A DNA stretch of 64,000 nt, taken from assembly GCA_019448385.1 (NCBI GenBank), contig JAGTXO010000028.1:1-64000 (forward strand). Direction: 5' to 3'. Each line of letters starts with the position of its first letter. Position 1 is the first letter of the stretch. A program made the position numbers and the translations under genes. Source of the stretch: Diacronema lutheri (Eukaryota > Haptophyta > Pavlovophyceae > Pavlovales > Pavlovaceae). Shown one piece after another: positions 2,949 to 24,397 of the stretch. The notes beneath the pieces are model-generated. The model was not told the DNA's origin, searched no databases, and worked only from the letters and a program-made list of their open reading frames with translations.

Positions 2949-2979
<31 letters not shown>

Positions 2980-3560
2980 CGAGGCGTGCGCGGGGGCTTG
3001 GGGTGGGCTCCGGGTGCCGGCGCTGTGCCAGCGGCGGGCTTGGTTGACGCCGTCTCGCCGGGGCCCTTGCGCCTTGCGGCGCGAGCGTCGCGGAGGGGCG
3101 TCGGCTGCGCTGGCTCCGCGTCGGCGGTGGCGTGGGGCAGGCTCTTGTGGAGGGCGGAGCGCTCGCGCACGAGTCGGTTGCCAAGGCGGGCTGTCTGCGT
3201 GCCGTTGGGCTGCGCTTGGGCAGGTAGGACCTGCGGCCTCGGGGGCGGGCGGGTTTTCGTGTTGGGCCAGGCGGCAACGCGCACCGGCCGTGTTCGCGGC
3301 CGGCAGGCGGACGTCCGCAGCGGGGCGGAGAATGCGGGTGACGCGCTTGCACGGGCGCGGTTCGCACCTGGCGGCCAGGCGATCACGAACCGTTGGGTCG
3401 CCCGGCTGTTTGGTGGAGCCGAGGGCAGCAAGGATAGCGAGCTTGGCCGCCTCATCGGTGACGAGCGGCACTGTTGCCCAGCTCTGTACCTCGAAGCCCT
3501 GGATGTGCAGGCGTCGGGGAAGTTCCCGGCAGCGTCGCCTGCGTCCGTCGAGAGGCGGAC
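2165..3560 (-). CDS. Unrecognised multi-exon protein, minus strand, exon structure unresolved
   Basis: Not recognised. The last exon is the best supported part: it reads back from about 2470 to a TAG at 2165-2167 and contains ASANLGGMVDPERKAALLAV followed by KYVILLLLPTR. A second coding-like block at about 2640-2770 contains PSSVFIPALLALAAYVGNPC, and a third at about 3390-3530 contains FEVQSWATVPLVTDEAAKLA. Between the blocks are G-tracts on the plus strand (2507-2547 and 2950-2979), which are C-tracts on the minus strand in the position of polypyrimidine tracts before acceptors. Hydrophobic patches suggest a membrane or secreted protein. Its stop overlaps the stop proposed for the convergent USP-like gene. 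The 5' end may reach beyond 3560, even to about 4900. Exact exons and the start codon could not be fixed. Confidence 0.35.
2507..2547. repeat. G homopolymer tract (one A interruption)
   Basis: About 40 G residues with a single A at 2526. On the minus strand it is a C-tract just upstream of the proposed terminal exon of the minus-strand gene. Confidence 0.95.
2950..2979. repeat. G30 homopolymer tract
   Basis: An uninterrupted run of G. On the minus strand it would sit in an intron between the second and third coding-like blocks of the minus-strand gene. Confidence 0.95.
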
Positions 3561-4888
3561 CGAAGTCGCGCCCGTGCCCCCGTTGGCGACACCGAGCTCT
3601 CGCTCGTTCACACCGGCCCGCCGACGCGGGCGCGTGGTGCGCGCGCGTTGGGTGCGTGTCTGCCTCGAGCAGCGTGCCCAGTCGCAGTGTGGGCGCGTGT
3701 CCGTCTGCCTCAAAACGCCACGTGGAGGGGAAGGCGCGGGGCGGGCTCGCCGAGGAGGTGCCGCCGCTCGCTGCCACCCGGCGCGGGCTCGGGGCAGCCG
3801 TCTTCGGGTGCCGCGCTCTTCGCGCCATGCACGAACGTTCCGCCGCGCTCGCAGCGCGCGAGCGCACACACAGAGCGCGCGGCGACCCCGGTGGGGGCAG
3901 TGCGTCCCGGTGGCACTCGCGGGCGCGCGCCTGGCCTGGGCGCAGCTGGGCGCGTTGCCGCCCGCGCAGCGAGCCGCCCGCGCGCCTCGCCGCGCGCGCG
4001 CTTCGTCGCACGCGTGCGCCCTGCATGCACGCGCACAGCGCGCGGCGGCTCGGCGCAGTGCAAGGCAGAGCGTGCTGCAACGGTTGCGAGGGCGCGCACG
4101 CGCGGCGCGGCGCGCCCCTGTGTGGTCGCCTGCGCGCGGCGCGTGGTCCGGACGCAGCTCGGTGGCGTGATGCCGTTCGTGCAACACAGTGCGCGTGAGA
4201 GCCGCACGTGCACACCTGCAGTGCAACGCGGCATTGCGCGCGTTGCGTGGGCGGAGCGCGGCTGGATGTGCTTGAGGTCGCGCAGCATGCCGCGCGCCGC
4301 GCGCTGTGCGGCGCAGCGAGTCGGCCATGCCCCTGGTCCTCGTCTCCGGGGGGGGGGGGGGGGGGGGGGTGGTGGTGGCAACCAGGATCCGCCAGCGCGT
4401 GGTGGGCGCCGTCCAACTCCCAGCCAGGATGCGCCCCGTTCTTCCCCGACACTCTCCGTCCAAACCCGCCGCCCAGCCTGCCGCCGCACCCGCCGCCAAC
4501 GCCGCCGCGCACCCATCCGCCGAGCTCACCTCGCGCGCGCTCGCGCTCACGCTGCGCGACGAGGCTGCGCAGGCCGGCGCGCGGCCGTGCAGAGCAGCGC
4601 AGGCCGGCGCGCGGCCGCGCGCGCGCGCTCACGTTGCGGCCGCGCAGCGAGCTTTCGCCGCGTCGCAGCCCCTCCGAGCAGCCACGATGCACGCCCCCGG
4701 AGGACGTTGGCCGCGCTCGGAGGCCGCGCTCGGGCGCGCAAAGAGAGGCGGCGCGGGCAAACGAGTAGGCTCGGCGCGCTGGCGGGTCCTGGTTGTGGGA
4801 GAGCGGGGCATTCTCCAGGGCATCATGTAAATTCTCCCAAGTATCATCCGGGCCGCCATCCGGACACTGACGTGCCCACAGTCTGCAG
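3561..4888. other. Gene-poor or unresolved stretch upstream of the giant gene
   Basis: No confident gene. Low-complexity R/A/P-rich frames are open on both strands. The minus strand has weakly coding-like stretches near 4240-4310 (contains LRDLKHIQPRSAH) and 4770-4880 (contains DDTWENLHDALENAPL) that could be 5' exons of the neighbouring minus gene. A G22 tract lies at 4348-4369. The last 60 bases before 4889 are locally less GC-rich and are the likely promoter or leader of the giant plus-strand gene. Confidence 0.4.
4348..4369. repeat. G22 homopolymer tract followed by GGT repeats
   Basis: A run of G that passes into several TGG/GGT units. As with the other tracts nearby, the minus strand carries C. 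Confidence 0.9.
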
Positions 4889-7800
4889 ATGGAGGACTCC
4901 GTGAAGGACGCTTTGCCCGGCGGGCGGGGCGGCTCGGACAGTTTCTCGCTGGCCCTCAGCACCATTCTGTCGCCGGGAGATACCCACCCCCACGTGGTCC
5001 CATCCACTTGCCTCATCGCCCTGCTGCGTTACGCGGATTTCGGCACGAGCAGGGTTAGGGTGGGCGACACGGGGTGCTCGCAGCATGCGCTCAAGGTGGC
5101 GCTGCGCAACCTGCGCAAAGCATGCGCGGATGCGGACCGGTTTGGGCAGGTGCTCGTGGTCGTGCTACCGCTCTGCCTCCGCGCGTCCCGCGGCCTCGTG
5201 CACTGGACGGCGGCGTACCTGCTCCTCGCGCCGCCCGCGCAGCGCGGCGCGCCGCCCGGCGCCGCGCTCGCCCTGCTCGCCGATTCGCGCACCTTGGGCA
5301 ACGGCGAATCGGCGTACGCCACGGCGGCCGGCGTGCTCATCAAGAAGCTTGCGCAGCGCATCGGCAGAACAGCGCCGCCCATCGATGCCTTCAAGGCGCC
5401 CCCGCAGAGTGGGGCCGCGTGTTGCTTCGCCGCGGCAACAGTCGCGGCCGAGGTCGTGGCGAGCGCATCGACGCTCTACGGCCGCCGCGCGAGTGTCCTT
5501 GTCGACATCAAGAAGGCTTTGGACGCGCGCCTCGCGCGCCTCACGACGGCCGCGTACGAGGAGACCCGCGCGCGCACGCTCCGCGCCGCCATCGGCGCTC
5601 TGCTCGGCGACCGCGCCAGGCGCTTCGGCCCGTTCACCCGCGAGGCCGCGCGGCTCGCCGAGGCCGCGCGGCTCGCCGAGGCGTGCGATGCCAGTGTCGG
5701 CGGATCCGCGCCCGACGGGCTGCTGCAGGCCGTCGAGGCGGCGCTGCGCGCGCCCGACGACCGCATCGCACGCACGGCCGCGCTCGACGCGCTCACGGGC
5801 GCTGCAGGCCGCGCGCTGTCGACGGCGGCCAGGCCGCGCGGCGCGGCGGCGCCAAGGCCGCCGTCGCGAGCGCCACCGCCGCGTGCGCCGCAGCGGCGCG
5901 CCGCCTCGGCGTGGGGGCCCCGACCATTCAGCAGCCTCGGCGGGGGCGAGGGCGACGGGGACGATGGCGACGCCACCACCGCTGACGACGGGGAGGGCGC
6001 GGAGGACGGGGACGACGACCCCGCGGGCGCGGCGGCTGCGGCGGTGGCGACGGGCACGGCGGCGACGAGCGCGGTGGCGGCGGGCGCGGCGCCAACCTCG
6101 CCGGCGGCGGCGGACGGCGGTGGCTCGGCGCCGCTCGAACGCCGCTGCGTCTACACTGCGCCTGATGAGGGCGACGCGGACGCGCGCGTGTACGACGCCA
6201 AGGACCCCGAGCAGCTAAAAGCGGGCAGGGCGCGGCTACGGGCGAACAGCGGGCGCGCGCCCGCCGTGGTCGACACGCTTTTCGCGCACGCGACGGGCAC
6301 GATCGTCACGCGGCAGCGCACGGAGGGCGTGACCGGCGCGGGCATGCACCACCTCGCCGCCCCGACGCAGGGCGCGGGGTACGGTACCGTCGTGCGGGCC
6401 GAGCTGGGCGAGCCCGGCTTCGCGGGGACGACATGGCACATGACGTCGGGCGTGGAGAACCAGCCGCGCGCGGTACAAGCGGCCGCGCGCGCGTACGCGC
6501 ACGACGGCTGGGGCGGCGTGTACAATGCGCACGAGGACTTTGCCGCCTTCGAGGGCTTGCCGCGGCTCGCCGCGCCCGAATCGCTCGCGGCCATCGCCGG
6601 CGGGTCGGCGGACGCGGTGTTCTGCTGGCGGTCCGGCCGGTCCGTCATCGGCGAGGTGACGACGGTTCACTTCAATGGCGACCGCGCCGCCGCCATCGAC
6701 CACGCGCGGGCGCTGCGCGTCAGGCCCGATTGGCGCTCGCAGCCCAGGATCTACGAGGCGGCGTGCGGCGCGGAGGGCACGGTGCTGCTCGTGTGGGTCG
6801 TGCCCGACCGTCACAAGAACCCGCGGCTGGACTGGGCGCCGATTCTCGTCGTGATCCACCTGCCCGCCGACGCCGACTGGCTCGCGCGCGCCACGCCGGC
6901 GATCGCGAAGGCGCGGCGCGAGGTCGAGGACGGACGCGCGCGCGCGGAGGCGCGCGGCGTGCCGCAGCACCTCGCCTACACGCTGAGCCCACGCTTCCGA
7001 GGCACCGCGCCGCGCGGAGCCGCGCGCGTGCCGCCGCGCCTCGGCGCGAGCGACGCGCGCGAGGCGCGCGCGCTCGCGGCGCTCGAGCCGGCGCTCATGT
7101 TCGCGCCGGCCTGGCGGCGCGCGGTGCGCGCGGCGAGCCGCGCCCCCGGCAGTGGCGCCGCGGCCGTCGAGCGCGCGCTCGCGCGCCTGCACAACGCGCT
7201 CGAGCCCGATGACGAGAGCGCGCCCGAGTCGACGCGCGTCGCGCCGCTCGCCGCCGCGCTCGAGCAGTCGGCGGGCTGGCCGGCGGGCACGGCGCGCATG
7301 GCGGCAAGCGTGACCAAGGGCCCCGGCGTCGGAGATGGCGCAGGTGGCGACGAAGTGACCAAAGTGGAGGAAACGGCGAAGACGAGCGGCGACGGCTGCA
7401 CCGGCACGCCTCCTCTGCGCCCGGCCGCGCGCGCGGCCGGCGCGGCGGACGACGGAGGGGCGGCGGTCGTGGCGGGCGTCGAGGGCGAGCGCGACGCACT
7501 CGCCAAGACGGGTGCCGGCGGCTGCGACGACGACGCTCGCGAGCCGCTGTCGGCCGGCAAGCCCGGCGCACTCGCCGCCGCGGCGACCGTCGGGGGTCTC
7601 GGCGAGCTCGTCGGCAGCCTATGCGCGTGGCTGGCGCGCGGCGCGGCTGGCGGCGCCATCGCGGCCATCTCCCCCGGGACGGCCGCGCGCGGAGCAAACG
7701 GCACGCCGCAGCGCGCCGAGCCGCCGGCCGCCGGCGATCCCGTCGCTCCGCACGCGCGCGTCGCCGCTGCGGCGCCCTTGGCGGGCAGCGCGGCGGCGCC

Positions 7801-10800
7801 GTCGTCGGCCGCGCGCGACGCGCAGCGCGGCGTCGCGGGATTCGACGCGGCCGCGCACGCGCACGCGCGCGACGGCAGGCGGGCGGCACGGCGGATGCGC
7901 GAGCACGAGGGGGCGGTGCACAGGGCCTTCCGCATGTCCCTCTGGCGCGACGCGACGTTTGTCGAGTTCGTTGAGAAGCTGCGCCCCGACGGCGGCGCGC
8001 AGCTGCTCGCGCGCGAGCCCACGCGGCGCGCGGCGGCGGTGCTGTGCGAGCTCGCGCGCGGCCGCGACGGCGCGAGCGGCGCGGCCGGGCTGCTGCACGA
8101 GATGAGAGCCGCCGATGCGCGCGCGCGCGAGGCCGCCAAAGCGGCGGAGGCAGCGCAGCTTGCGCACGGGACGCTGCGCATCGTGGCAACCGTGGCGCTG
8201 GGCGGTGCGGTCTTCGCCGGCATGTCAGCGCTGGTCGTTGCTTGCGCGGCGCGCACGGCGACCGGTGCGCTTTTTGGGGCCCGCCGCCCGCGGGCGGCCG
8301 CGCGCGGAGCCGACGACGCGCTCGGCACGCTGCAGCGCGCCAAGCCGCCGCCCGCCGACAAGGGCAAGCGCAGGCGCGCCAGAGCCAACGACGACCCCGT
8401 CGACGCGGCGCGCAAGGCCGTGGGCAAGGCGGAGGGCAACTGCCGCAAGGCAGCCCGCCGGCTGCACCTCGCTGCACTGGGCGAGGAGGAGGCGCAGCAG
8501 CGCGTGCTCGACGCCGAGGCGGCGGAGCAGCTGGCGCGCTCGCGCGAGCCGGCCGGCGGCTGGGTAGGCAGCGCGCGCGCGCGCGCGCGCGCGCGCCCCG
8601 CCGCGCGCGCGCCCGTCGATTGGCGTGCGCGCAGCGCAGAACGGCGCGCCAGCTCCGTCACCTGCGCGCCGCCGCGCCCGTGCCCCTCGCGCGCAGGGGC
8701 GCCCTGCGGACCTGCGGCTGCAACAGGCGCACTTTGGCATGCGCGAAGATGCCGACGCGGATGTGCGCCGCGCGCACGAGGCGCTGCGCCGGGCGAGACA
8801 GGGTGTGGCGTGCGCCAAGGCCAGCGTGCGGCAGATGGAGGCGGCGTTGCTCAACGCGACGCGCTGCGCCACCGCGGTGCTCGCGCCGCGTGGCGTGCCG
8901 GAGGGTGACGAGCAGGCCGCGGCGAGAGAGCAGGCGGCGCTGGACCGGGAGGCGCCGCCGGCCGCGCAACGCGCGGCGCCGACGGCGCGCTCGCCCTCGG
9001 AGCCGCCGTCCGAGTGGGGCCCGCCAGCGGTCGGCCGGCGCCCGACGCCGCGTGCACTGTCGCACGCCGCGGGTCGCGGGGACGACAACCCGTTTGCGCC
9101 GCTCGCAACCGTCAGCGGCGATTGGTCGCCCACGCCGAGCTCGCGCTCGCCGTCCTCGCCGCCGCGGCAGCCGCCGTCCGACCGCCGCAGCGCGCAGCGT
9201 CGCAGCGCGCGCGCGCGGCCGCCGAGGCCGACCGTTTCGCCCGAGGACGCGCTCGCAGCCGAGCGCCAGGCGCGCGCGCTGTCGGAGCAGGCGGAGCAGA
9301 GGCGCGCCAAAAAGGCCGCCGCCAAGGCCGCGCGCCGCGCCGCGCGCGCCGCCGACAAGCGGACGGCGCGCGTCGTCCACGCGTGCGTAAGCGCCGCCTT
9401 GCGGCGCGTCTGCACGAGCGTCGCCACGGGCACGCCGCTCGCCGTGCTCCGCGAGCGCGCCGAGGGGCCGCGCGCGCCGAAGCCCGCGCCCGCGCCGCCA
9501 CGCCGCGCAGCGGACGGCGGCCGCGCGCTCCGCCACGCGCGCCGTGCGGCCGCCGCGGCGGCGGAGCGCGAGGCGGCGGTGGCGGCCGACGCCGACGAGC
9601 GGTTCGAGCGGCAGCCCTCCGCCGCCCGGTTCGACGGCGGCGATGGCGGCGGAGGCGGCCACGTCGAGGCGAGCGCGCGACCGCGCGCCGGCGAGGCCGG
9701 CGAGGCTGGCGCGCACGGCGCGCCTGGCGCAGCGGGGACCCCGGCGGCGTCGCTCGCGTCGCGCAGCCCGTGTGATGCGCGCCGCACGGCACGCCTCCCG
9801 CACGCACGCGCCGCAGCCACCTGCGCACGCAACGGCGGCTGGGGTGGCAACGTCGGCGGCGACGTGTGCGGCGGTTGTTTCGGCGGCGGCGGCGTCCGTC
9901 GCGACGCCTGCGGCGGCGGCGACGCCACCTGCGGCTGCGGCGATGGCGGCGTCGGTGCTGGCGCTGGCGAGGCCCCTGCACACGGTGCGCCGGCGCGCGC
10001 GACGGCGTCGCGCTTGCTGCGCTTGCTCGGCGCGCCACGCGCCGTGCTCGGTGCGATGGCGCACGCCGCGGCCGTGTTGGCGCGCGGCGTGGCCGCAGCC
10101 GTCGCTGGCGTGCGCGCCGCCGCGCGCGCCGTGCGGCGCGCGCGCCGCCGAGCGCCTCGCGCGCGCCGCACGGCTGCGCGGCGGGCTCGCGGCCCGCCGA
10201 TGCGCGACGTCGACGGCGCCCTGCGGCCCTCGCCGTCCTGGTTGCGCACACGCCTCGTCTGCGGCCGGCGCCTCGCGCCTCTGCGCCGCGCGGGCGCGCG
10301 CCCGCCGCCCGCACACGCCGCGCCGAGTTCCCGCGCGCGCGCTGCGCAACCCGACAGCGACGCGCCGGCGTGCGCGCCGCGGCGCTCGGCGCCTGTCGGT
10401 GCGCCGCCGCGCGCGCGTGGCCTGCGCGCGGCGCGCGCACGGCGCTTCCTCGACGTCGCCGGCCGCGCGGCGCGGAGCGCGCGCCTCGGCGCGCGCATCA
10501 CGCGCCAGCGCACGCCGGGTTCGCCATCGGAGCCCTGCACGGCCGAGAGCGGCGACGGCGCGGGCGCCGGCGGCGTCGGCGCGGCGGCGCCTGGCGCGGC
10601 GACGATGCGCGCCACCGGCGCGCGCGCAGCGCGCGCTGCGGCGGCGGCGGTCGGTGGCGCCTCGCGTCTCGCGCGCCGCGCGATGGCAAGCGCCGCCGCC
10701 GCTGCCACCTCCATCGCCGGCGCTGCCGCCTCCACCGTCGCCGCCGCCGCCGTTGCCATCGGCGCGGCCGTCACGTCACCGGCGTTCGCCGCGGCGCGCG

Positions 10801-13133
10801 GCATGGCGGCCGCATGCGTCGCTGCCTGCGCCCGCCCCACCGCCGCGCAGGCGGCCGCGTCGCGCGCGCTCGGCGCGCTCTTCGTGCTCGTCGACGCGGC
10901 CGACGCGGCGGGCGACAGCGACGCCGCGCTCGGCGCGCTCGCGGCCGCGGTCGACGCGACGGAGCTGCGCCCGCCGCCGGCCTTTTGGCGCGCGGGCCGC
11001 GCCGCGGCGTACGCACCGCGTCCGCCGCCCCTCGACTCGGCGCGGCCGCGCTACAACCGGCGCGCGCGCGCACCTAGCCCTCCCGTCGCGGCCGCGCGGC
11101 GCAATCTCGCGCGCGCGGTGCGCGAGCTCACGCGCGCCGCGCGCGCTGAGCGCGAGCGCGCGCCGGCGCCGCGCGGCGCGCGCGGCGGCGTGCTCCACGC
11201 GCTGCGCGCGTCGCTCCCCGTGCACGCGCGTGCCGCGCTCGGCACGGACGCGGAGCTGCGCGCGGACATCGCCGCGTTCGCGCGCGCGCGCCGCGAGCTG
11301 CACAGCCTCACCGACGCCGAGGTGGCGGCGCTCGCGCGCCCGGACGGGCCGCCGCTGCCCGTGCGGCTCGCGTGCACGGCGGTCGCGCGCGCGCGCGGCG
11401 TGACCGTGCTGCTCGACATCGTGCCGCGCGGCGGCGGCGCGCCCGAGCGGCTCGTGTGCCGCGCCCGTCGCCGCGGCGCCGCCACGCGCACGCCACGGCC
11501 GACAGCCGCCGTTATCGCGCGCGCGCCTTGCATAGCGGCGCGCGTTGGCCACACTGAGCCGGCGCGCGCGTGCGCGGGCGGATCGATCGGGGTCGCGCGC
11601 CTCCGTTCAGCGCGCCGCCGCTCTTGGCGTGGGGCGCGGCTCGACGTGCACACCCGCGAGCGGCTGGCCACACCGGTGCCAGGCCACGTCGTGGCCTGCG
11701 CCGCCGCCTCGGCCATCGGCGCGTGCGTCGCTCGCGCGCGGCTTGGGCTTGCACGGCTGGCGCGCGCGTGGCCCTGCGCCTCCGCTCCACTGGCCGCTGC
11801 TGCTGTCGCCTTCGCGCCTGCCGCCGACGGTGTTTTCTGCGCCCCGCTGGGCGCTCCTGCATCCGCCTTCGCGCCTGCCGCCGACGGTGTTTTCCCCGCC
11901 GCACTAGCCGCTGCTGCATCCGCCTTCGCGCCTGCCGCCGATTTTCCCGCCCCACTAGTTGCTCCTGCATTCGCCTCCGCGCCTGCCACCGACGGCGTTT
12001 TCCCCGCCCCACTAGCCGCTGCCGCTGCCGCGTCCGCGCCTGCCGCCGCGGGCGCGTCTTCCGCCCCACCAGCCATCGCCGCCGCGCCCGCCGCCAACGC
12101 GCGCACCGCCAACGTGCCCGTTGCCAACGAGGCTACCGCCACCGAACCAGCCGCCCTTGAGCTTCCCCTCCAACCCGCCAACTCGGCGCTGCTTGCGTGG
12201 GCGGGCGACGCGGCTGCGCGCCGGCTGGCCGCCGCCGCCGCGAGCGCCGGCCTCCCGCAGGCAGAGGTGGAGCGCATCGCCAGCGGCGACATGCTCGCCT
12301 CAACCGTCGACGCGTGCTGCGAGGTCGTGCTGCGCGTGCACGGGCAGGCCGGCGGCGGGCATGTCTGCCACGTGCCGCTCGCCGCGCAACCCGCGGTGTT
12401 TCAGGACGACGCCGAGCGCGCCGCGCTGCTGCACCGCCTGCGCAGCGAGGCGACAACGCAGGCTGTCATCGGCGTGTGGAGCCCGTCGGACGAGCGCGGC
12501 GGCGCGGGCGGTGACGACGGCGCGCAGCTCGCCTCCGGCCATTTCACCGCGTTGCGCCTTGTGCGCGTCGCGCGCGCGGGCGAGCATCGCTACGACGCGG
12601 TGCTCGTCGACACGCTCGCGTCGCCCTGCAGGCAGGCGCTCATGCTCGCCAAGGCGATAACTGCCACGCTGCACGCGGCGGGTCTCGACATTTCGCGCGT
12701 GCGCCGCGCGCTGCTGCTCAACGAGGCGGCGCAGCGTGGCGCGACGTGCGGCCTCGCGATAGTGGGCGCGCTCAACGACGCGCTCGCCGCGGCGGGCTGC
12801 TCGTCCGCGCCGCGCACGTTCAGCGTGGCGGACATGTACGCTGTCGGCGAGCGCCTCCGCGTCGCGCTGACCGGCGCGGCCAGCGATCGTGCGCCGGGCG
12901 GCGTCTGCGCGGTCACGAGCGCGGTGCGTGGCGGGGGCAGCCCCGATCGCGCCGAAACGCCGCCGCAGACGCGCGGCGCCAAGGCCGCCGCTGGCGTCAC
13001 CGCCGCCGCCACCGCCGCCGCCACGCCGCCGCCGCCCGCGCTGGGCGCCGCCGCCGCCGCCACCGCCGCCGCCGCCGCTGCTGCCGCCGCCGTGGCCGCG
13101 CCGCCACCGCCGCCACCGCCGCCGCCGGCCGGC

Positions 13134-13213
<80 letters not shown>

Positions 13214-16200
13214 GCGCACGTTCTTGAAGCTCGCGCCCAGGGCGCGCGCGGCCGCCTCGGCGCGTGAGGCGTTGCGCGCCGCGTGTGCGCGCGCGGACGC
13301 GGCGGCGTCGTCACACGCGTCGGCGCCGCACGCGCCCGCCGGTGCGCGCCGCCGGCGGCGCGCGGGCGCAGGCGAGCTGGCGCTCGCGGCTGCGCGCGCG
13401 CTCGCCTCGACGGAGCACGGCGATTTGACGGACGACGCGCTCGAGGCCGCCGTCGAGCAGGAGCTGGGCGACGAGCGCGGCCAACTGCTGCTGTGCACGC
13501 GGGGCGCAGCGGCGCAAAGGCCCGCGCTTTGCCGGCTCCTGAAGCACGCGTGCGCGTCGGCGCGCGCGGCGAAGCGCGCGCAATTCACGGTATTCGTCGT
13601 GCGCGCGGCCACGCGCGGCGAGCGGGGGGGCGCCGCCGCGAGGCGCGTGGACTCGGTGGTCGAGCTGTCGTGCGCGCTGCACGAGAAGGCGGGCGCGCTC
13701 GGCGGCCTCCAGAGCGTCTGTGTGCGTGGCTTTGCCCTCGAGCGCCGCCGGACACTCGACGCTGGCGCCGAGGCCGGCGCGTCCGCCATCGGCCAGGACG
13801 AGCAGGTCGAGGCAGAGGCGGGCGAGGCGTGCGTCGCCGGCGTGACGATGGCCAAGCAGCTGCGTCAGTTTGCCGAGCAAGCTGCCCGCGACGACGTGCT
13901 CTTCCACGTCGCCGTGTCCGAGGCCGACGCCCACGCCCGGCTGGCGCGCGTTGCGGGTGACGATGTCGGCGCGTACAGCGTCGTGCTCGCAGTCGCCGGG
14001 CTCGTCTGGCTGGCCAAGGCCGACGAGGTTGCGCCGGCGGCCGCCCAGTCCGCCGCCGTGCCGCCCGCCGCCCCGCCTGCTGCCGCCACGTCCGCCGACG
14101 CCGAGCGCGACGCCTCGCCTTACGACCGCCTGCGCGCGCTGACGCTCGCCGTGCGAGTCGCGCTCGCGCGCGGCGTGCTGCGCCACCTCCTCGCCGACGC
14201 GTCGCCGGGCGCGTCCGCGACCGCTGGCGGTAGTTGCGCGACGCCCGTCGAGGCGGCCGCGTCCGACGCCGCGCCGCCCGCCACGGGCGTCGTGACGAGT
14301 GGCGTTGCGGCGGGCGCTGTGGCGGCCGCACCGGCTGCTGCGGGCGGTGCGATGGCGGGTGCATCGCCCATCGCGCGGCCGGCGAAGCGCGCGCGGCGCA
14401 CGCTCACCGCCGCTCCAGCCGCCTCGGCCGTTGCGGCCGCTGGAGGCGCACGCGCGGGCGCACGCGGCGCGGCCGGCGCGCCTCGCGCGCGCGCCGCGCG
14501 CGCGCCGGCCGAGTACGTCTGGCTTGCCATCGCGCGCCGGATGCTGGCGGCGCGACACGCGGCGGCCGCGGGCGGCGACTTTGTCGCGTCGTGCGTCGCC
14601 GCGATGCAGGCCGAGTACGGCGACGGCTGTGCCGTCGTCGTCGGCGACGCGCCTGGTGACGCCTTGGTCGAGGCTGCGGCGGCGGCGCTGCTCGAGGGCA
14701 AGCACGCGGCGGTGAGCCTCGGCTGCGTCGACCGGCCGGCGGTGCTCGTCGTGCAGCGCGCCGTGGACGCGCCCACGTCGCGCGTGCACGGGTGGTGCGC
14801 GCACGCGGCGGGCGCCGCCGAGTTTGACGAGGGCGCCGCGCGCGACGTGTTCAACGCGATCGTCGAGCGCGCGTGGGCGCTGCGTCCGGACCCGGCCGAC
14901 GGCAGCCCGCCGCCCACGCGCACGTGGGAGGTCGAGCAAATCGCTGACGACGCGCCCGACCAGGCGGGCGTGGCCGCGCTGCGCGTGCTCTACGCGCTCG
15001 TCGCGGCGCACGGCCGCTACCGCTCGGCCGCCGCGCTCTTTGGCGCGCTCGCGCAGCTGCACGCGCCCGACGCCGCCGGCGCGCGCGCGGAGGTCGTCGC
15101 GGCGGCGTGCGCGGTGCCGCCCGGCGCGCGGCCGGGCGCCGCGCCGGCGGCCGCGCGGGACGACGCGAGGGAGCGCGCATGGGAGGGCGCTCAGATCGCC
15201 GCGCTCGCCGTCGGCGCGGACGCTGCGCGCAGGCGTGTCGCGCCCGTGCGCGCGCTCGTCGACGCGCTCGGCACGCCGCCGACCTCGGCGATCACGGGCG
15301 GGCCGGCGGTGCGGCTCGCGGGCGCGGGCGACGGCGGCCACGGTGCACGGTGGGTGGGCGGGCAGGCGGCGACGCCCGCCGAGCAGCTGCCGAGGGAGCT
15401 GCTGCGCGCCTACCACGAGGCGGTGCTGTGCGTCACGCCCGGCAGCCTCCAGCTCGGCCCGGCGGCGCTCGACGCGGTCACGCGGCCGCGCGAAAACGAC
15501 ACGCTGGAAGGCCTCCTCGCGCGCGTCAGCTGGCAGTGCGGCGCGAGGGCGAGCACGTGCGCCATGCTCGCCACGTTTTCCGAGCAGGCGGGCACCGGCT
15601 CGCGCGTCGCGCTCAAGGCCCTCCGCACGAGCTCCGACCTGGCCGGGCTGACGGCGGCTGCGGTCGGGCAGCAGGCGCCGCAGACGCCGCCGCCGCCGCT
15701 GCTCGTGATGCTCGGCCGCTGCCCCAGCCCGCTCGTCGGCGGTGGCCTCTTCCCGCCCGACCGCGCGACGGGCGAGCCGGCGGTGCACGCGGCGACGTCC
15801 GAGCTCGCCGTCGAGCTGCTGCGCGACGCGCGCGCGCTGGCCGGCACGGACGGGCGGCTCGTCGTGCTGTGCCTCGAGGCGTCCAACCCGCTCTGGTTCT
15901 GCCCCAAGGTGCGCGAGCTCGAGCTGCCGCGGACGCGGTCGGACGGCGTGCGCGCGTCCGGCTGCACCTGCCCTGCGACGTGCAGCGATGCGCGCGGCGC
16001 GGCGGGTGGCGCTGCCCGCGGCGCATCGACGCGGCCGGCGGCGCGCGCGATCAACAAGGCGGTGCTCGACCACTTCGTCGCGCTTTTCGGCCGCGAGGGC
16101 TTCGCGACCTTTGAGTTTGCGGGCGGCGGCGAGGCGAGCTGGCTGTGCGACAGCGCGGCCGGCACGACGACCGTCGCGGCGTGCGCGTCGCTGCCGCCGC

Positions 16201-19200
16201 GCATGGGCGATGGGCAGCTGGCCATCCGGCGGCACACGCTCGGCACGGGCGCCGACGCGCCGGCGCACGCCGTCGTCTCGCTCCGCGTCGCGCACGTGAG
16301 CCACGCCATCCGCCGCGCGGCGGACGACGGCGGCGCGCGCGCCGAGCGGATGGCGCGCGCCGCGCGCGCGTTTTGCGATGTGGCGGCCGCGCTGCGCGTC
16401 GACGCGATCCTGGCGGAGGTGCCCGAGGACCGCCCGACGGGCACGCCCTTCCTTGGCGGGCTGCTCAAATTTTGGGACAAAGACCACGGGAGCTCGACGG
16501 CGCCAGCCACGCTCGCGCTCGGAGACGTGCGCGAGGTGGCCAAGCGGACGGCCGACGCAGCGGCCGGCCGAGCGGACGAGGTCCCTGCGGCTGGCCGTCC
16601 GCAGGTCGCGGCGCGCGCGTGCGCTGGCGCGATTGGCGGCGGTGCGGGCGCGGCGGGCGCCTCGGACGCTGCGCCGCGTGCACTGGCGGGCGCGTCGGGT
16701 GCGCGCACGGACGGCGGCCCTGCCGACGCACCGCGCCAGCTGGAGAGCCGCTACGGCGAGGCGAGCAAGCTCGACCTACCCCAAGATTCCACTACGGGCC
16801 GCGTCCTCGACGCTCGCGAGGCCCAGGACCGCGCGCGCGTGCCTGCTGCGCCCGACGGCACAGCGCTGCGCCGCGTGCTCGACGCCGTCGGCGCGGGCGC
16901 GCCCGCGCAGCGCAGCCCGCGCTGGCACGACGAGCGATGGGAGGAGGTCACGGGCAGCAAGGTTGGCGACGTCGTGAACGACAACGCCGGCGTCGCGCAC
17001 GAGACGCTCACCGACGAGTACGTGCACCGGCGGCGGCGCGAGGTGCGGACCAAGGCGACGACCGCGGGCATCCTCGGCGAGGCCGTCGCGCTGCGCAAGC
17101 TGGCGGCCGCGTACGGCATCACCGTCGTGTGCAACCTGCCGATGGTGCGTGCGGACCCGCACGACAAGAGCGCGCCGTTCGCCTTCTCGCCGGACGGGCT
17201 CGCCATCCTCCCCGAAAACAACGAGCAGGTCCTCGTCGAGGTGAAGACGCTCACCAAGGCGGGCGCCACGGCGCACGAGGACGGGCCGCCGCAGCCGCAC
17301 CGCGATCAGCTGCAGCTCGGCATGCACGTCCTCGGCGTGAGCAAAGCGCTCTACGTGCAGTACCTCAGGCACGAGGACCGGATCGTCGTGCACGTCGTGA
17401 CGCGCGGCGCCGGCTGGCTTGCATTCGCGCAGCCGAGGGTGCAGGCCTTCTGGGCGCGCGTCGTCGAGCGGCGCGCGCGGCTCGAGCGCGCGCGCGCCGA
17501 CCACCCGGCTGCGAGCCGGCGGCACCGGCGGCAGCAGACGCCGGCCGGGCCGCCGCTCGTGCTCGCGCTGGACGGGCGCATCCCCGCCGCGCGCGCCGCC
17601 GCGCTGCACGCCGTCGCGCACGGCACCGCGAGCGCGGCGGCGGTGACGGCGGCGGCGGCGACGGGCGACGCGACGGCGTTGCAAGACGCGATCGCGGCGC
17701 TGCGCGCGCCCGTCGGCAATGCGGCGATCGACAGCGCAGCGCGTGCGGAGCGCGCGGCCGTCGAGCGGGCGATCGCGTACCTCGGGCAGCCGGCAGGCGA
17801 CGCCGCCGCCCGCGGCACGGACGAGGCGGCCGAGGAGGAGAGGACGGTCGACGCCGACATCTGCGCGTTGCTGCACCAGCTCGGCGCGAGCGTGGCGCAC
17901 GTGCACGTCGAGGACGCGGATTGCGTCACGCGTGAGCACTGGGGCGGGGCGGTGCTCGCTGCAGCGGGCGACCCGTCGAGCGCCCCCGCCATTTCGAGCG
18001 TCATCGTCGCGCACATCGTGCGCCTCGCCGGCTTTGGCGTCGAGCTCCCGCAGTCGATTCGCGTCGCCCCCAGCACGGCCGACTGGCACGAGGGCTGGCT
18101 CGACGTGCAGTGCGTGCTGCTGCGCACGCGCCGGCGCGGGCGGCGCGACGACGACTTTGTGGCCGTCGTCAGGCGCGGTGGGCGCTGGTTTGCGTGCGAG
18201 CCCGGCCGCGCGCGGCGGCTGCAGTGGCGGTCGGTCCTGCGCCGCGCGCGCGGCGGCGTCGACGGGACCGGCGAGGAGGCGTTCGCGGTCGTCTACGTGC
18301 GGCGCGGCGACGCGGCCGGCGACGCGGCTGGCGACGCGCAGGCCGAACGGGCGCGCGGCGGGCGCGCGCGCAGGCGCACGCGCGGCGGCACGCGCAAGCG
18401 CAAGCGCGGCGCCTCCGCCGGGCTCGAGGCGGCCGCGCCCGCCGGCGCGCCGGCGGGCGCTGCTCACCGCCCGCCCGCCAGGCGTGCCACGGTCGCCGCG
18501 CGCACCACGCGCTCTGTGACCGACGCGCGGCACTCGGCGCCTGCCGCCACGGTTGCACCTGTCTTCGACTGGCGCGCCGGCCGCCCGCCCCCTGCCGCCG
18601 CCGCCGCCGCCAAGCGCGGCCAGGCGCTCGAGCCGGGGCAGTTCGCGCGGCCGCGTGGGCGCGCGCCATGGGGCAAGGTCTGGGACAGAGTCTCGGGTGC
18701 GTGGGCGGACAAGCCGACTGGTGCTGCCGTCGCCGCCGCGCCGCCGCCGCTGCCGCCCGCCGCCGCGCCGCCGCCCGCCGCCGCGCCGCCGCCCACCGCC
18801 GCGCCGCCGCCCGCCGCCGCGCCGCCGCCCGCCGTCGCGCCGCCGCCCGCCGCCGCGCCGCCGCCGCCGCCGCCACCGGCGGCGCTCGGCCGCCGGCAGC
18901 ACGTCGGCGCGGGCGGCAGCGCGGCGGGCCGGCGGCTCGCGGCCATCGCACGGCGGCAGCGCGGCGTGCGCGCGCCGCCGCCCGCCGCGCGCTTCCTCGC
19001 CACGCTGCCGCCACCGCCACGCGACGGCCTCGCGCGCACGAGCAAGCAGGCGCGCGCGAGGCGCAACGCGGACGGACGGCCGGCGCACGCGCGCGCGGCC
19101 AACGCGCGCGCCTTCTACCGCGGCGTGGAGCTCGGCGTGCACGCGACGCGCGCCATCGTCGACGCGCGCCACGCCGACCTGCCGCAGGCCGTCTTCGTGG

Positions 19201-22200
19201 CGGAGGCGCGGGCGATCGTCGCGCGCTCCGCCGGCGGCGGCGCGCTGCTCGCGCCGGACGACGTGCGCGACCTGTGCGACGCGCAGACGGACGCCGATCG
19301 CGCTGCGATCTGGGCGTCGGTGGGCGCGCACGAGGCGACGCGCATCTTCGCGCTCGTCACGCGCAACGCGAGCTTGGCGGGCGCGGCGCTGCTCGTGCTG
19401 CACACGCCGGCGGGCGCGCCGGCGCGCGCGCTCGGGCTCGTGGCGACGCGCTCGCGCGCGCCGTCGACGGGCGCGCCGCGCGACGCGCACGGGGCGCTGG
19501 TGCAGCGGTTGGACGTGCTGATGGACGCGATCGCCGCGGCGCGAGGCGCGTCGCCGCTCGAGCTCGAGCTCGCGCTCGCGCCCGAGCCGCAGAGCGCGTG
19601 CAACGCGCGTGCGGCCGCGCTGCTCTGCCTGCAGGCCGTCGCGGACGCGAGCGGCCGTCCCGCCGCTGAGGACGCGCTGGCCGCGCTCGACGACGCGCGC
19701 GGCATCGACCGGCACTGCCACGCCGTCCGGCAGCAGATCGAGGCGAAGCTCGCGTGGCGGCGCGCCGACGGCGCCGTCGGCGTTGACGGCGCCGACGGCG
19801 CGCCCGCGCTCGCGCCTGCCGCCGCACCGCCGGCGTGCGCGCCGGCGCACGCTGCCGGCGAGGCGGCGGTCGACCAGGCGATCGTCACGCGGGTGCGCGA
19901 CGCGCTGCGCGCGTGGGCGACGACTGGCACCGCGCCCAGCGCGGCGGTGCTCGACGACGCCTGCGCCGCGTACACGGCCCGCGCACGCGCGCGCAAGGAC
20001 GCGCGCACGGCGCTGGGCCCGACGCGCGCGGCCGAGCTGCTCGCCGCGGCCGCGCGCGGCGGAGCCGACGGGGCGGATGCCGCGCGCGCGCTGCTCGGCG
20101 GCACGCCGCGCCTGCTCGTCGTGCTCCTCTGCGTGCCCGTCGCCGCGCCGTCCGGCGAGCCGCCGCGCCCGGTCGGGCTGCTCGTCGCCGACCGGCCGAC
20201 GGACGACTCGCGCCCGGCCGCGCTCGTGCGCTACGACTTTGCGCCGCTCGACGCGGACGTGGCCGTCGCGGTCGGCACGCATGCCGTCGCGCTGGCCAGT
20301 GCGATCTGGCCGCTGCTCGCGGCCGAGGGGGAGCCGCGGCCATCGCCCGTCGTGCGCTCGCAGCCGCGCGGCGGCGACGATGGCGCGCGTGCGCTCGCAA
20401 CGTTCGCGTGCCTCGACGCGCTGATGACCGCCAGCGTCGGCGCGCACGGCCTCGCGGGCGGCGCGGGCATGCTGCCCGCGCTGGTCGCGCGAGGCGCCGC
20501 GGCCGCCCAGCGCGAGCGGCAGCTGCGCGCGGCCGCCGAGAGGCTGGGCGGCACGGTCGCTGGGTGGCCGGACACGGGCGCGAGCGCGGCGGGCGCGAGC
20601 GTCGACGAGGAGGCGCGCACGTACGAGGTCGAGGCGGTCGTCGACGAGCGCCGCAAGGCGGGCAAGAAGGTGACGTTCCAGTTCCGGATCAGGTGGCGGG
20701 GCTACGACGAGAGCGCCGACACGTGGGAGCCTGAGGCCAACGTGAGCAGCGACCTCGTCGCCCAGTTCCGCAAGACGCGCGACGAGCAGAAGCGGCGCGC
20801 GGGCGTATCGGGCAGCGGCAGCGGCGGCGCGGGCGCGGCGTCGGCATTGGCGTCGGCGCCGCTTCGCGCGCACGGCGAGTCGGGCGCCGCGGGCAAGCGC
20901 GCCGCGGCGGGTGCCGCCGCGAGCGCGCGCGACGCCGCGGGCGCGCGCGCGCCGAGCGTTCCCCGCGCGCGCGGCGTCGAGCGCGCGCGCGTGGACGAGC
21001 CCGCTGCGCCGAGCGCGCGCGCCGCCGGCGGCGCGACGGCGCGCACGCGCGTCAGCGTGCTCCCGGGCTTCGTGGTCAAGCGCTCGACGCTCAACGCGGG
21101 GCCGCAGGCGGTGACGGCGCAGCCCGGTGCGCGGAAGGAGCTGCGGCGCATCGCGGCGGCCGTGCACAGGCTCACGACACAGGCGTACCGCGTCATCAAC
21201 AAGGTGGTGCGCGACGAGGCTGCGGTGGCGAGCGCGCAGGCCGTCGGCGCGGCGTCGGGCGGCCCGTCGACCAGCGTGCACACGTCGACCACGATGGACA
21301 AGGGAACCGTCCGTGCGATCTTCTCGGCCATCGGCTGGCACAAGGACGAGAGCACGTACGGTGCAGCGCCCCGAGGCAAGCCCGCCGAGCAAGCCGCCGC
21401 GCAGACCAAGGCGGCGACGGCGCGCGCCGTCGGCGAGATGGCCGAGGGCGTCCAGCCCGTCTGCGCGGTGGGCCTCACGGAGATCCTCGAGGCGGAGGCG
21501 ACGCAGGTGTCCACCGCGTGCCTGATGCATCCATCGCGCGTCGTGAACGGGCTGCTCCGCGACGTCGTCCGCGCGGCAGTCGAGCGCGACGAGGCGCTCG
21601 TCGCGCTGCCCGAGATGCAGCGAAACGCGCGCGTGCGCGAGCTGTGCGAGCGGCTGCTGCGCGGCGACGTGGAGGGCGCGCGCGTCGGCTGCCCCGCCGC
21701 GCTCGACCGCCACCTGCCCGACATGGTCCTCCACAAGATCGACTACAAGTGCACGCCCACGAAAAGGTGGAACTACGACCGGCACACGACGCGCTACTTC
21801 CTCGTGCAGATCCGCACCCTGCAGCACGTGGCCGAGGGGCAGGCGCTGCTCTGCCGGCTCGCGCACATCCACACGCAGCTGACCGGACGGCCGCCGCGGT
21901 ACAATGTGGCGCCGCTGCGCACGCACAATGTGCGCGCGAGGCGTGGCTGCCGCTGCCGCCGCCGAGCGCCCAAGCGCGCGCGCCGCCGCCGTGCGCGCCG
22001 CCCCGCGGCCAGGTTGGTCACGCGCCCGCGCGCTCGCGCGCCGCGCGCTGCGCGCAGGTGCCGCGCAACGTGCGCCTCGCCGCGAGCGCCATCTGGGTGA
22101 CGCTTTCGGATGACGAGCGCAAGGAGCTGCGCGCGCGGCTCAAGGCGCTGGACCTGCGCGACCACGATGGCGAGCCGATCAAGTGGACAGGCACAAACGG

Positions 22201-23782
22201 CAACACCCCGCCGATGTCGGACGTGCGCGTCAGGTACGCGGTCTTTGCGACGCGCTTCGACATCTCCAACCGCGTCTTCGACTACGCCGGGCGCGAGCGG
22301 CCGCCGGCCGATCTGCCGTGGCACGCGCGGCGCTCGTGGGTTGGCCTCGCGCCGCTGCCGCGCGTGCCGCTCCCGGGCCGGCAGCCCGTCAAGTCGGTGG
22401 TGACAGATGGCGTCGCCGTGCACGCCGTCGGGACCGTCCTCGTGCCGAAGGCGCAGGCGCCGGCCGGCGGCTCGGGCGTCCTGCACCGCTGGCGCCGGCC
22501 GGACGGGCGCATCGCCGTCGCGCTCGGCTCCGAGCTGCGGCGGGCGATCGACGTCGAGGCGGCGGTCGTCGTCGCGGCCGACCCGAACATGGGCAACATC
22601 ACCACCTACTCTGCGCACGTCGGGCGGGCGGCCGTCTGGCGGCAGTTCACGCAGCGCGCGCGCGCGCGCGCCGCGGGCTTTGCGCGCGAGACGGCCAAGA
22701 CCAACGCGGCGCGGCGGCGCGTGCGCAAGGACGGGCGCGGCGAGGAGTTCAGCGTGGAGGCGGACGAGGCGCGGCTTGGCGAGGCGCACAGCGCCAAGGT
22801 GCTCGGCGAGGGCGAGTTCCACGCCTTCCACCGCGAGAGCGCGCGGGTGCGCGAGCGCGCCGCCGAGCACGTGTACGACGCGCCGGCGCGCCGGAAGGAG
22901 CGCTGGCGGCGCGACAGCGGCGGGCGGTCCAACGCGGCGCGCGTCGCCGAGGCGCTCATCGCGGCGCACTGTGTCGACGGCGTGACGCGCGACCGGCTGC
23001 TCGTGTGCGTGGGCAAGTGGCTGCGCGACCACAAGGGCGCGCAGCCCAAGGGCGCGCCGCCCGCCTTCCAGGTGGGGCTGCTGCGCGAGCTGCGGCGGCG
23101 CGGCGTCGCGGCCGTCTTCGTGCCCGAGCCGTACACGTCGATGCACTGCTCGATGCCGCGGCTCGCCAAGGGCGGCAGGCTGCAGCGCTGCGGCGCGGAG
23201 CTCGCGCAGAACCCGCGCCTGCCCGTGGCAAAGGGCGGCACGCGCACGGTGCACGCGCTCGTCATCTGCCCGGCGTGCAACGGCGGCAAGAAGCCCGTGC
23301 ACCGCGACTACAACGCCGCGCGCAACATCTTCTACGACGTGCACGACATGGCGGCGCACGCGGCCGGGCGCGACACCACGTCGACGCCTGAGCGCTTTGC
23401 CCTCGTGCTCGCCTGGTGGGCGCGCGGCGAGGTGTGGGAGCGTGAGGAGCGCATGGTGCACGGCGAGGGCGACGACTGCGACGACGAGTGCGACGGCGAC
23501 GACGAGGGCGACGACGAGGGCGACGACGACGACGACGACGATGGCAGCGGCGACGGCGGCGGCGGCGAGGGCGACGGTGACGGCGACGGCGACGGAGGCG
23601 GCGGCGGCGACGACGACGATGACGGCGGGGGAGGCGGCGGCGGCGACGGCGGTGGCGACGACGGCGGCGGGCGCGGCGGCGGTGGCGGCGGCGGCTCTCG
23701 CGCCCGCACCCCCGCCCGCGGAGCTGCCAGCGCCAGTGCCGGCGGCGGCAGCGCGCGCGGGCCGAAGCGCGGCCGGCGTTGA
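4889..23782 (+). CDS. Giant Fanzor polyprotein: Ulp1-like proteases, YqaJ exonuclease, chromodomain, Fanzor RuvC nuclease
   Basis: Proposed exons are 4889-8563, 8727-21929 and 22058-23782, joined by two phase-0 GT-AG introns, for about 6200 aa. Visible domains in order (approximate residues): Ulp1-like protease 90-190; membrane segment about 1095-1125; second Ulp1-like protease 2440-2580; further Ulp1-like but degenerate segments between about 2780 and 5130; YqaJ/lambda exonuclease fold 3955-4125; chromodomain 5188-5248; Fanzor nuclease about 5410-6100; acidic Gly/Asp tail. Fanzors are eukaryotic relatives of TnpB, RNA-guided DNA nucleases carried by transposons and giant viruses. The combination suggests a mobile-element polyprotein that may process itself with its own cysteine proteases (inference). 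R/A/P-rich parts at 8.9-11.8 kb may hide further introns, and the unit could be several genes. No canonical transposase, Rep/helicase or polymerase motif was seen. Confidence 0.6.
5050..5480 (+). other. Ulp1/C48-like cysteine protease domain 1 of the giant protein
   Basis: A His-Trp pair in LVHWTAAYLLLA (His near residue 105), an Asp in LLADSRTL (residue 132), and an oxyanion-type Gln with nucleophile Cys in PPQSGAACCFAAA (Gln173, Cys178/179). This is the H-D-Q-C order of the C48 family, with the Gln six residues before Cys179. All catalytic positions appear present, so it may be active. In the polyprotein it could cleave the chain itself or SUMO-like modifiers. Confidence 0.55.
8564..8726 (+). 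other. Intron 1 of the giant gene
   Basis: GTAGGC donor and CAACAG acceptor, 163 nt, phase 0. It connects the frame ending in EPAGGW to the frame beginning AHFGMREDADADVRRAH. It contains a long (GC)n run at about 8571-8596. A functional link is needed because the upstream frame has no sensible C-terminus and the downstream frame has no ATG-led start. Confidence 0.6.
11800..12045 (+). repeat. Imperfect coding tandem repeat (FAPAADGVF units)
   Basis: Four imperfect copies of a unit of about 60-66 bp, each encoding a variant of AFAPAADGVFPAPL. They lie in the giant gene just before the second Ulp1-like domain and probably form a flexible linker. Confidence 0.75.
12280..12840 (+). other. Ulp1/C48-like cysteine protease domain 2 of the giant protein
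   Basis: His in ASGHFTALRLVRV (about residue 2497), Asp in YDAVLVDTL (about 2520), Gln and Cys in AAQRGATCGLAIVGAL (about 2561 and 2566). The ATCG-L-A-I pattern matches the C48 DCG motif with Asp replaced by Thr. The secondary-structure rhythm (strand around His, strand around Asp, helix after Cys) fits the family. Likely catalytically competent. Confidence 0.6.
12995..13215 (+). repeat. GCC trinucleotide expansion, poly-Ala/poly-Pro
   Basis: Dense GCC and CCG triplets. The end at about 13135-13213 is a nearly pure (GCC)n encoding more than 20 alanines. It sits between the second Ulp1-like domain and the next folded segment. Confidence 0.9.
16905..17420 (+). other. YqaJ/lambda-exonuclease-type nuclease domain of the giant protein
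   Basis: The domain begins SPRWHDERWEEVTGSKVGD, which has the arginine and T-G-S-K pattern of YqaJ recombinases. The catalytic set of the PD-(D/E)XK fold is visible: Glu in ILGEAVALRKLA, Asp in FAFSPDGLAILP, Glu-x-Lys in VLVEVKTLTKAG, and the helix HRDQLQLGMHVLGVSKALY. Residues about 3955-4125. YqaJ-like proteins are 5'-3' exonucleases used in single-strand annealing recombination by phages and large viruses. Here the domain could act in element replication or integration. Confidence 0.75.
18735..18870 (+). repeat. 18-bp Ala/Pro coding repeat
   Basis: Repeats of a GCCGCGCCGCCGCCC unit encode AAPPPAAAPPPT-type segments, about eight copies. They form a linker between the YqaJ side and the region leading to the chromodomain. 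Confidence 0.85.
20611..20793 (+). other. Chromodomain of the giant protein
   Basis: YEVEAVVDERRKAGKKVTFQ is followed by FRIRWRGYDESADTWEPEAN and a C-terminal helix VAQFRKTRDEQ. This is the classic chromodomain order: Y-x-V-E-x-I/V, then a strand with FRIRWRGY, then DTWEPE. The aromatic cage positions are Tyr (start), Trp (WRGY) and Trp (TWEPE). Chromodomains bind methylated histone H3 tails and target many retroelement integrases to chromatin. Here it precedes the Fanzor nuclease by roughly 200 residues. Confidence 0.8.
21290..23390 (+). other. Fanzor (TnpB-like) nuclease domain
   Basis: An N-terminal part (residues about 5410-5625, exon 2) leads into the RuvC core in exon 3. RuvC-I is VVVAADPNMGNITTYSA (Asp at 22580-22582, residue 5801). 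The canonical RuvC-II glutamate position (LLVCVGKWL) lacks Glu. A Glu is instead present in VFVPEPYTSMHCS (23126-23128, residue 5983), the alternative site described for Fanzors. The zinc-ribbon cysteines are HCS, RCG and CPAC. RuvC-III is HRDYNAARNIF (Asp at 23306-23308, residue 6043). The intron 21930-22057 splits the domain. Overall a probably active RNA-guided nuclease. Confidence 0.8.
21930..22057 (+). other. Intron 2 of the giant gene
   Basis: GTGCGC donor and GCGCAG acceptor, 128 nt, phase 0. It joins RYNVAPLRTHN to VPRNVRLAASAIWVTL. An alternative donor at 21906, also phase 0, is possible. The intron brings the frame that carries the RuvC catalytic residues into register with the chromodomain frame. 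Confidence 0.6.
23460..23720 (+). repeat. GAC/GGC coding repeat, acidic Gly-Asp tail
   Basis: The last 80-90 residues of the giant protein are almost only Asp, Gly and Glu from GAC, GGC and GAG triplets. This is a strongly acidic low-complexity tail after the Fanzor domain. Confidence 0.9.
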
Positions 23783-24397
23783 CGCACGGCCGAGCCGCGC
23801 AGCGGTCGACGCTTTGCGGGCTCTGCCCAGGTCGCGCGCGGCTGGCGACGCGTGCCGCGCGCGGCACGACCGTGCACGCCGCCACCCGTGGCCGAGCGCG
23901 CCGCACCAGCCGGCCCGCTCCAACCGCCGTGCGGATCACGGACGCTCGCTACGGCTCGTCGGCGCGCGTCACCTGCGCCGGCGGCCACGGCGCCGTCTGC
24001 TCCGGCCTCGTCGCGAGCAGCCCGACCGCTGCTCGCCGCCCGCACGCCGCCGCAGCAACGCTGCGCGTCGTGCTCCCCCGCTCGCCAAACGCGAAGAGCT
24101 CCCTCACAAGGACGTCCTTCCGAACGGCCCGCGCTGCACTCGGGGCGCGATCGTGCCCCTGATCGGATTTGGCTTGACCATCTATACAGGTACACGCAGC
24201 TCGAAAAGTGTTAAAGACATTCACGGATCTGCGCCGGTCGGCGTGACGGCGGTGCGCCGGTGTGCCAGTGGCAACGGCTCGCGATGCCGGATGCATCTTT
24301 CGGGTGCGACGCCGAGCTGGCGTCGGGCGGCCAGCGGGCCACATCGTCGCCAGGTTGGCTTCCGCACGAGCTGCCCCGCACGAACGGCAACCCATGG
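23783..24397. other. Intergenic stretch after the Fanzor stop
   Basis: About 615 bp between the Fanzor stop and the proposed glycosyltransferase start. The first 350 bases remain very GC-rich, and 24145-24245 is locally AT-richer and probably the promoter of the next gene. In TnpB and Fanzor loci the guide RNA often overlaps or follows the 3' end of the nuclease gene and marks the element's right end, so this is where such an RNA would be sought. No hairpin or terminal repeat could be proven by eye. Confidence 0.35.

Follow-up and report, generated by a model that had tools for sequence, protein, structure and literature searches.

A giant Fanzor-bearing mobile element in Diacronema lutheri with coding capacity for a 6,200-residue chain of exonuclease, chromodomain and nuclease

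The DNA analysed here is a stretch of 64,000 nt from Diacronema lutheri, a marine haptophyte alga of the Pavlovales (contig JAGTXO010000028.1, positions 1 to 64,000; hereafter the window). It begins inside a DNA-type mobile element of 31,036 bp, of which the genome contains at least 150 copies that are nearly identical. The element could encode a chain of 6,200 aa and a PIF1 fusion protein, and it also contains a UCH/USP-type ORF. The features of the element in the window are as follows.

1 to 24187, + strand: mobile element, 3' 24,187 bp of 31,036 bp; other copies agree to 24187 and then diverge
18 to 1514, + strand: UCH (ubiquitin-specific-protease-like) stop-to-stop ORF; Pfam UCH 4.3e-8, over the cut-off, in two stretches
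4889 to 8563, + strand: exon 1, with 1,225 codons of the giant chain; N-terminal C48-like motif by eye, no profile-supported domain
8564 to 8726, + strand: predicted intron 1, GT-AG, phase 0; an acceptor at the AG of 8695-8696 would keep the frame just as well
8727 to 21929, + strand: exon 2, 4,401 codons without a stop
12138 to 12827, + strand: C48-like H..D..Q..C motif block, by eye only, with neither profile nor structure support
16899 to 17474, + strand: YqaJ/RecE-like lambda-type exonuclease domain; E, PDG, EVK and Q motifs by eye
20622 to 20774, + strand: HP1/CDY-like chromodomain; Pfam 7.5e-12, PDB chain 2dnt 1.9e-10
21930 to 22057, + strand: predicted intron 2, GT-AG, phase 0
22058 to 23782, + strand: exon 3, with the Fanzor RuvC core and an acidic/Gly-rich tail
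22580, 23126 and 23306, + strand: Fanzor RuvC residues by motif position (D, the alternative E, and the D of RD, respectively)
23090 to 23329, + strand: Cas12f1/TnpB-type nucleic-acid-binding zinc domain; Pfam PF07282 4e-6, over the curated cut-off
23783 to 24187, + strand: 3' non-coding end and candidate omega-RNA region, the downstream flank being the would-be guide; fixed 3' end, 18 distinct flanks
24142 to 24159, + strand: near-palindrome GGGGCGCGATCGTGCCCC, by sequence, 28 nt from the 3' end
24182 to 24187, + strand: terminal CTATAC; CTATA is found again at the element's 5' end

The original prediction had placed one coding unit with two phase-compatible introns at 4889-23782. Indeed, when 4889-8563, 8727-21929 and 22058-23782 were joined across the predicted introns, an intact frame of 18,603 nt and 6,200 aa was obtained, in which the sole stop was the terminal one. 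These coordinates describe the coding frame correctly, but the element to which they belong is 31 kb long and extends past the contig start. Without a stop, the longest frame spans 4,510 codons; 200 first-order Markov resamplings of this DNA gave a median of 848 codons and none longer than 1,504. Codon preference supported the frames of the chain throughout, save for those 600-base windows that cover the introns and the C-terminal repeat, and the frame shift in this signal coincided with the intron positions named earlier; because the preference was trained on exon 2 itself, it is informative mainly for exons 1 and 3. No domain was assigned across large portions of the chain. The protein homologue search returned no homologue of the exon-2 region 2650-4440 among 1,334 sequences scored and none of the first 780 aa of exon 1 among 8,000 scored, and no relative was found in four scans of viral contigs.

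Subsequently, we consider the domains of the chain, which had been predicted to be C48 proteases, a YqaJ exonuclease, a chromodomain and a Fanzor nuclease; the last three were upheld by profiles and motif residues, but the first found no profile support. The exonuclease matched PHROG 434 (RecE-like exonuclease) with an E-value of 4.1e-15, and the catalytic residues of a YqaJ/RecE exonuclease are present by motif reading. The match to TIGR03033 (3e-5) was under the cut-off of that model, and those to Pfam YqaJ (0.031 with the full frame as query, 5e-4 with a segment) were both under the curated cut-off. A PDB sequence search gave no relatives of this domain. As for the domain at 20622-20774, it is a chromodomain with certainty and of the HP1/CDY type when compared with PDB sequences, and all three positions that we take to form the aromatic cage (Y, W, Y) are present.

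The Fanzor motifs were located in the chain as ADPNMG at aa 5801, EPYTSMHC at aa 5983 and RDYNAARN at aa 6043. The residues occur in the order D-P-N, E, TS, four Cys and RD, the E standing six residues ahead of the zinc finger's first Cys. Their spacing, D-X(184)-TS-XX-C4 zinc finger-RD, fits the published Fanzor pattern D-X(125,275)-[TS][TS]XX-C4-X(5,50)-RD (PMC3627910). Exon 3 thus contains the RuvC D, the rearranged E, TS-XX-C4 and RD that characterise Fanzor1. The NCBIfam TnpB model gave only 0.085 against the giant chain, and a search of PDB sequences with exon 3 yielded nothing at E 0.1. Two deviations were observed: DPN stands in place of DPG, and the first zinc-finger Cys pair is widely spaced and not CxxC. 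Fanzors are described as near-exclusively DPG at the active site (PMC10711439), and the active site of SpuFz1 is reported as D383/N385 (PMC10432273). The element's Fanzor accordingly shares with SpuFz1 the D-P-N plus E active-site signature and a zinc finger (PMC10432273). It differs in being joined to other domains, in having a guide RNA that is a candidate only, and in its first Cys pair. The target-adjacent motif of SpuFz1 is CATA (PMC10432273), whereas CTATA lies at the element border, where a corresponding role would be expected only.

The claim of C48 (Ulp1-type) proteases in the chain was rejected as unsupported after Pfam, PDB sequence, genome-wide and own-profile tests. Pfam gave no C48 match on the frames or on the ten segments scanned, and its C48 model found nine matches across the genome, none of them at a located element copy. 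A profile of our own, built from three of four C48 loci, was run on 11 segments with 500 shuffles per segment; it aligned to eight of them, each below zero bits. For the two segments in which the C48-like motif is clearest, 96 and 111 of the 500 shuffles scored as well. The best segment, in exon 1, was equalled by 8 of 500, its score likewise being below zero bits. PDB sequence searches with two C48-like segments returned three unrelated weak matches for one and none for the other. H..D..Q..C blocks are visible by eye in segments of exons 1 and 2, and we treat them as leads only; a single-sequence structure model of one such block was too poor for use (pLDDT 40.6). The further proposal that proteases release the parts of the chain likewise finds no support in these profiles and this model. 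The protease-like domain that does have profile support is the separate UCH/USP-type ORF upstream of the chain. Its Cys-box and His-box stretches are both there, as in the deubiquitinase profile; the PDB matches were weak, to the His box of USP12 (E 0.045; its Cys box scored below zero bits) and to the Cys box of USP7 (E 0.76).

The element also encodes a PIF1-type helicase (Pfam 7.3e-24; 2B domain, 1.6e-12), spread over two frames. Its first 250 aa form a conserved domain without characterisation, fused to PIF1. Six homologues of the helicase exon were found among 8,000 scored: one was identical, and the other five (P0005-P0009) were stand-alone metagenomic proteins of 246-252 aa, 53-73% identical to the helicase N-terminal domain. 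These 250 aa matched no known domain; the predicted fold was poor (pLDDT 52.9), and nothing matched it at E <= 0.001. Our guess is that the P0005-P0009 family might be a single-strand DNA-binding protein. Pfam detected no transposase, integrase, HUH nuclease or reverse transcriptase in the frames scanned, the antisense of exons 1-3 lying outside the scan, and within the same scope no hallmark of a retrotransposon, Polinton or virus (reverse transcriptase, capsid, polymerase). Near the 5' end of the element, a patchy codon signal on the minus strand of locus L048 (about 2000-3100) points to short exons of an element gene, and internal inverted repeats surround L048 3551-4418.

The genome searched comprised 43,492,796 bases in 103 contigs. 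The search for further copies that had been proposed yielded at least 150, with an exonuclease identity of 98-100% in all 150 scored of 237 candidates; for the other element probes, the best 40 of 175 to 248 candidates were scored. The copies are dispersed, nearly identical and fixed at their ends, as expected of the mobile system that had been predicted to combine a chromatin-reading, RNA-guided nuclease with a recombination exonuclease. Self-containment is not proven, since no enzyme of transposition could be recognised. The contig start cuts off the first 6,849 bp of the element, which were taken from another copy (contig C1), making 31,036 bp a composite length; other copies extend upstream past window base 1 to a sharp 5' end. 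Among ten copies sampled at both ends, five agreed with the window upstream of the chain, four had a different sequence between helicase and chain, and one was rearranged at the 5' end.

The element ends, 5'-CTATATAC...TCTATAC-3', are sharp, and the flanks are unrelated. Among 37 distinct 5' flanks, the border was CTATATA in 35, CTATAGA in one and GTATATA in one. The border readings in these flanks were CTATATACGG in 30, CTATATAGGG in five, CTATAGAGGG in one and GTATATAGGG in one, in a sample biased by the query, which carried the CTATATACGG form and retrieved 25 of 38 loci. At the 3' end, CTATAC preceded 17 of 18 distinct flanks and CTA the remaining one. The flank bases showed no strong consensus, G opening 11 of the 18 3' flanks. 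A palindrome, GTACGACCCGGGTCGTAC, lies 48-65 nt from the 5' end. The DNA folds of both ends were not significantly better than those of shuffles, and no terminal inverted repeat was found at the element ends. Alignment of copy ends, which had been proposed as a way to find target duplications, showed short CTATA direct repeats at both ends; no clean empty site was obtained.

CGTTA occurred within the last 20 nt of 4 of the 37 5' flanks, but in the remaining window only 2 of 1,990 tiles of 20 nt contained it; hence the element was often inserted beside the ends of short repeats with AAGCGTCGTTAG-like termini. Such repeats were seen at window 46285-46445 and at loci L066, L072-L079, L088, L094, L096 and L101. 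Several contigs start or stop exactly at the element's 3' end (C1:1, C12:1 and C8:187138) or have it one base from their last (C3:444900 of 444,901, the window being the start of C3), and this repeat therefore limits assembly contiguity.

An open frame of at least 4,400 codons was retained in 87 of the 150 scored copies. The frame is thus kept open in over half of them, and we make no claim of selection among the present copies. Comparison of the window with the longest diverged copy (9.5 kb, 98% identity) gave a pN/pS of 0.95 over 3,089 codons; in seven stretches of lesser length (803-945 codons), where differences were few, it ranged from 0.12 to 1.07. No stops were seen in the 18 compared stretches, in which gapped codons were left out. 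Taken singly, indels were multiples of three in 3 of 28 coding and 3 of 31 non-coding events. The coding indels cluster in repeats, and six of seven neighbouring blocks total a multiple of three, the grouping into seven blocks having been made post hoc. These data bear on the possibility that the region yields several separate transcripts and not one 6,200-aa chain. Ala/Arg-rich linkers do part the domains, as separate products would lead one to expect; nevertheless, exon 2 alone is open over 4,401 codons, most copies keep this length open, and the grouped indel blocks of exons 2-3 mostly preserve the frame. We therefore consider separate transcripts unlikely, though worth keeping in mind.

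Taken together, the joined nuclease, exonuclease and chromatin reader suggest an element that spreads through programmed DNA breaks. Since a programmable cutter, a resecting exonuclease and a PIF1 helicase occur together, RNA-guided cut-and-copy is the simplest functional reading. We tentatively regard the element as a new giant Fanzor-bearing DNA transposon that may spread mainly in this manner, at a probability that we place somewhat below even. A guide RNA would be transcribed through the element's 3' end into the flank and would direct the Fanzor to the uninterrupted allele beside a CTATA-like motif. The RecE-type exonuclease would resect the break made by the Fanzor, the PIF1 helicase would aid long-tract repair synthesis by which the element is copied across, and the chromodomain would keep the complex on methylated chromatin. 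PIF1 is the helicase type required for break-induced replication. At new sites, the first insertion would have to be made by another enzyme, possibly of a single-strand (HUH-type) or site-specific kind, as suggested by the subterminal palindromes and the short CTATA direct repeats without inverted repeats. A cut-and-copy model for Fanzors has already been proposed (PMC10432273).

Several observations count against cut-and-copy. The open frame was shorter than 3,000 codons in 24 of the 150 scored copies, 2 of the 150 carried a stop within the exonuclease stretch, and pN/pS gave no clear purifying selection among the copies compared with the window. The RNA fold of the last 202 nt was no better than chance (z -1.37), and no Rfam family matched in the 64,000-nt window. 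When the flanks of one copy were joined in search of an empty site, they matched only copies of a neighbouring short repeat. Furthermore, CTATAC is kept at the element's own 3' junction, so that self-cutting would need to be avoided, and the scanned frames contained no transposase.

The other routes of transposition were judged less probable. A giant Helitron, or a Helitron2/HUH-type relative, in which Rep has diverged past recognition, rolling-circle transposition relies on PIF1 and the exonuclease, and the Fanzor was captured as cargo, is unlikely to about the same degree as separate transcripts. The element resembles Helitron and Helitron2 in its PIF1-type helicase, its palindromes near both ends, its high copy number and the lack of detectable inverted repeats; moreover, capture of Fanzor1 by Helitrons and hairpins at both Helitron2 ends have been reported (PMC3627910). 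It differs in its termini, which are not the canonical TC...CTRR (PMC3627910), and in Rep, which Pfam did not detect in the scanned frames. Helitrons have a Rep (HUH) fused to the PIF1 helicase; here the long frames contain HUH-like patterns, none of them Rep-like by eye, and the helicase N-terminus matched no known domain. A convincing asymmetric inverted repeat of the Helitron2 kind was not found either.

An ordinary DNA transposon, with CTATAC as the target, a 5-bp CTATA target duplication, a DDE transposase hidden in the chain and the Fanzor as passive cargo, would account for CTATA at both borders, and much of the chain has no assigned domain in which such an enzyme could lie; however, no DDE profile matched in the scanned frames and inverted repeats are missing, making this reading improbable. 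Cryptons have short direct repeats and no inverted repeats. A Crypton-like element, whose tyrosine recombinase would use CTATA as the crossover core, would share this arrangement and fit the base variation just inside the 5' end, but it is the least probable alternative, marginally behind a hidden DDE transposase: no tyrosine recombinase was found in the scanned frames of the element, the 16 genome matches to the phage-integrase profile are far below the element copy number, the two of them with a Fanzor hit 22-25 kb downstream (C69:95472 and C17:194914) are part of another repeat, which does not match the element, and a loose H..R..GH..Y pattern search gave implausible matches only.

All 16 phage-integrase matches (C1:83672, C4:48529, C6:987126, C17:194914, C69:95472 and 11 others) were over the cut-off. 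The two that lie upstream of a Fanzor hit (L109 and L110) share 94% of their sequence and show no relation to the giant element, and this genome probably contains further tyrosine-recombinase elements.

Fanzors within transposons are already known (PMC3627910). Like the Fanzor1-bearing transposons described there, the present element is a DNA-type mobile element with the same D...TS-zinc finger-RD pattern; it differs in that its Fanzor forms the C-terminal part of a 6,200-aa chain that also contains an exonuclease and a chromodomain, and in that the element measures 31 kb and has no recognised transposase. Its exonuclease domain is RecE-like, as in phage RecE and lambda Red systems; here it lies within the chain of a eukaryotic mobile element, and no annealing protein was identified. 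In chromoviruses, a chromodomain is fused to the retroviral integrase. The giant chain likewise joins a chromodomain to a mobile-element protein, but the chromodomain stands beside a Fanzor and the scanned frames contain no reverse transcriptase. No earlier description of this chain, element or gene set was recognised among the best literature matches in open-licence papers.

In returning to RNA-guided cut-and-copy, we note that in this multi-copy family one chain joins a Fanzor that retains its motif residues to an enzyme of break resection and a chromatin reader, so that the cut-and-copy idea becomes directly testable in a culturable alga. A broader form of this reading would make the element a transposon class without a conventional transposase, in which the nuclease-exonuclease-methyl-lysine-reader chain and PIF1 use programmed breaks followed by break-induced replication, as a natural gene drive in a eukaryotic nucleus; we think this doubtful, slightly more so than a Helitron relative. 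If all copies were full length, the family could reach about a tenth of the genome (150 x 31 kb / 43.5 Mb), a figure to be read as an upper-side estimate, since shorter and rearranged copies do occur. In the repeat section of the published genome, LTRs and LINEs are the main annotated classes (PMC8379373); the present copies suggest that a giant DNA element makes up a large share of that genome's repeats.

A second multi-copy Fanzor family was observed at L001-L008 (contigs C1, C4, C9, C11, C25 and C69) and six further loci; 13 loci have an identical score of 43.9 bits, with open frames of up to 1,779 aa. In the eight 3.2 kb loci that were read, likeness to the giant chain was confined to the nuclease part. 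Downstream of 24187, the window contains host-type genes, three of ten long ORFs having Pfam matches (TPR, STELLO-type and sulfate permease). The frame of the sulfate-permease/STAS gene (47046-50912) includes a perfect 21-bp tandem repeat of 6.6 units at 49756-49893 and a 96-bp tandem repeat of 2.4 units with 92% match at 49928-50161.
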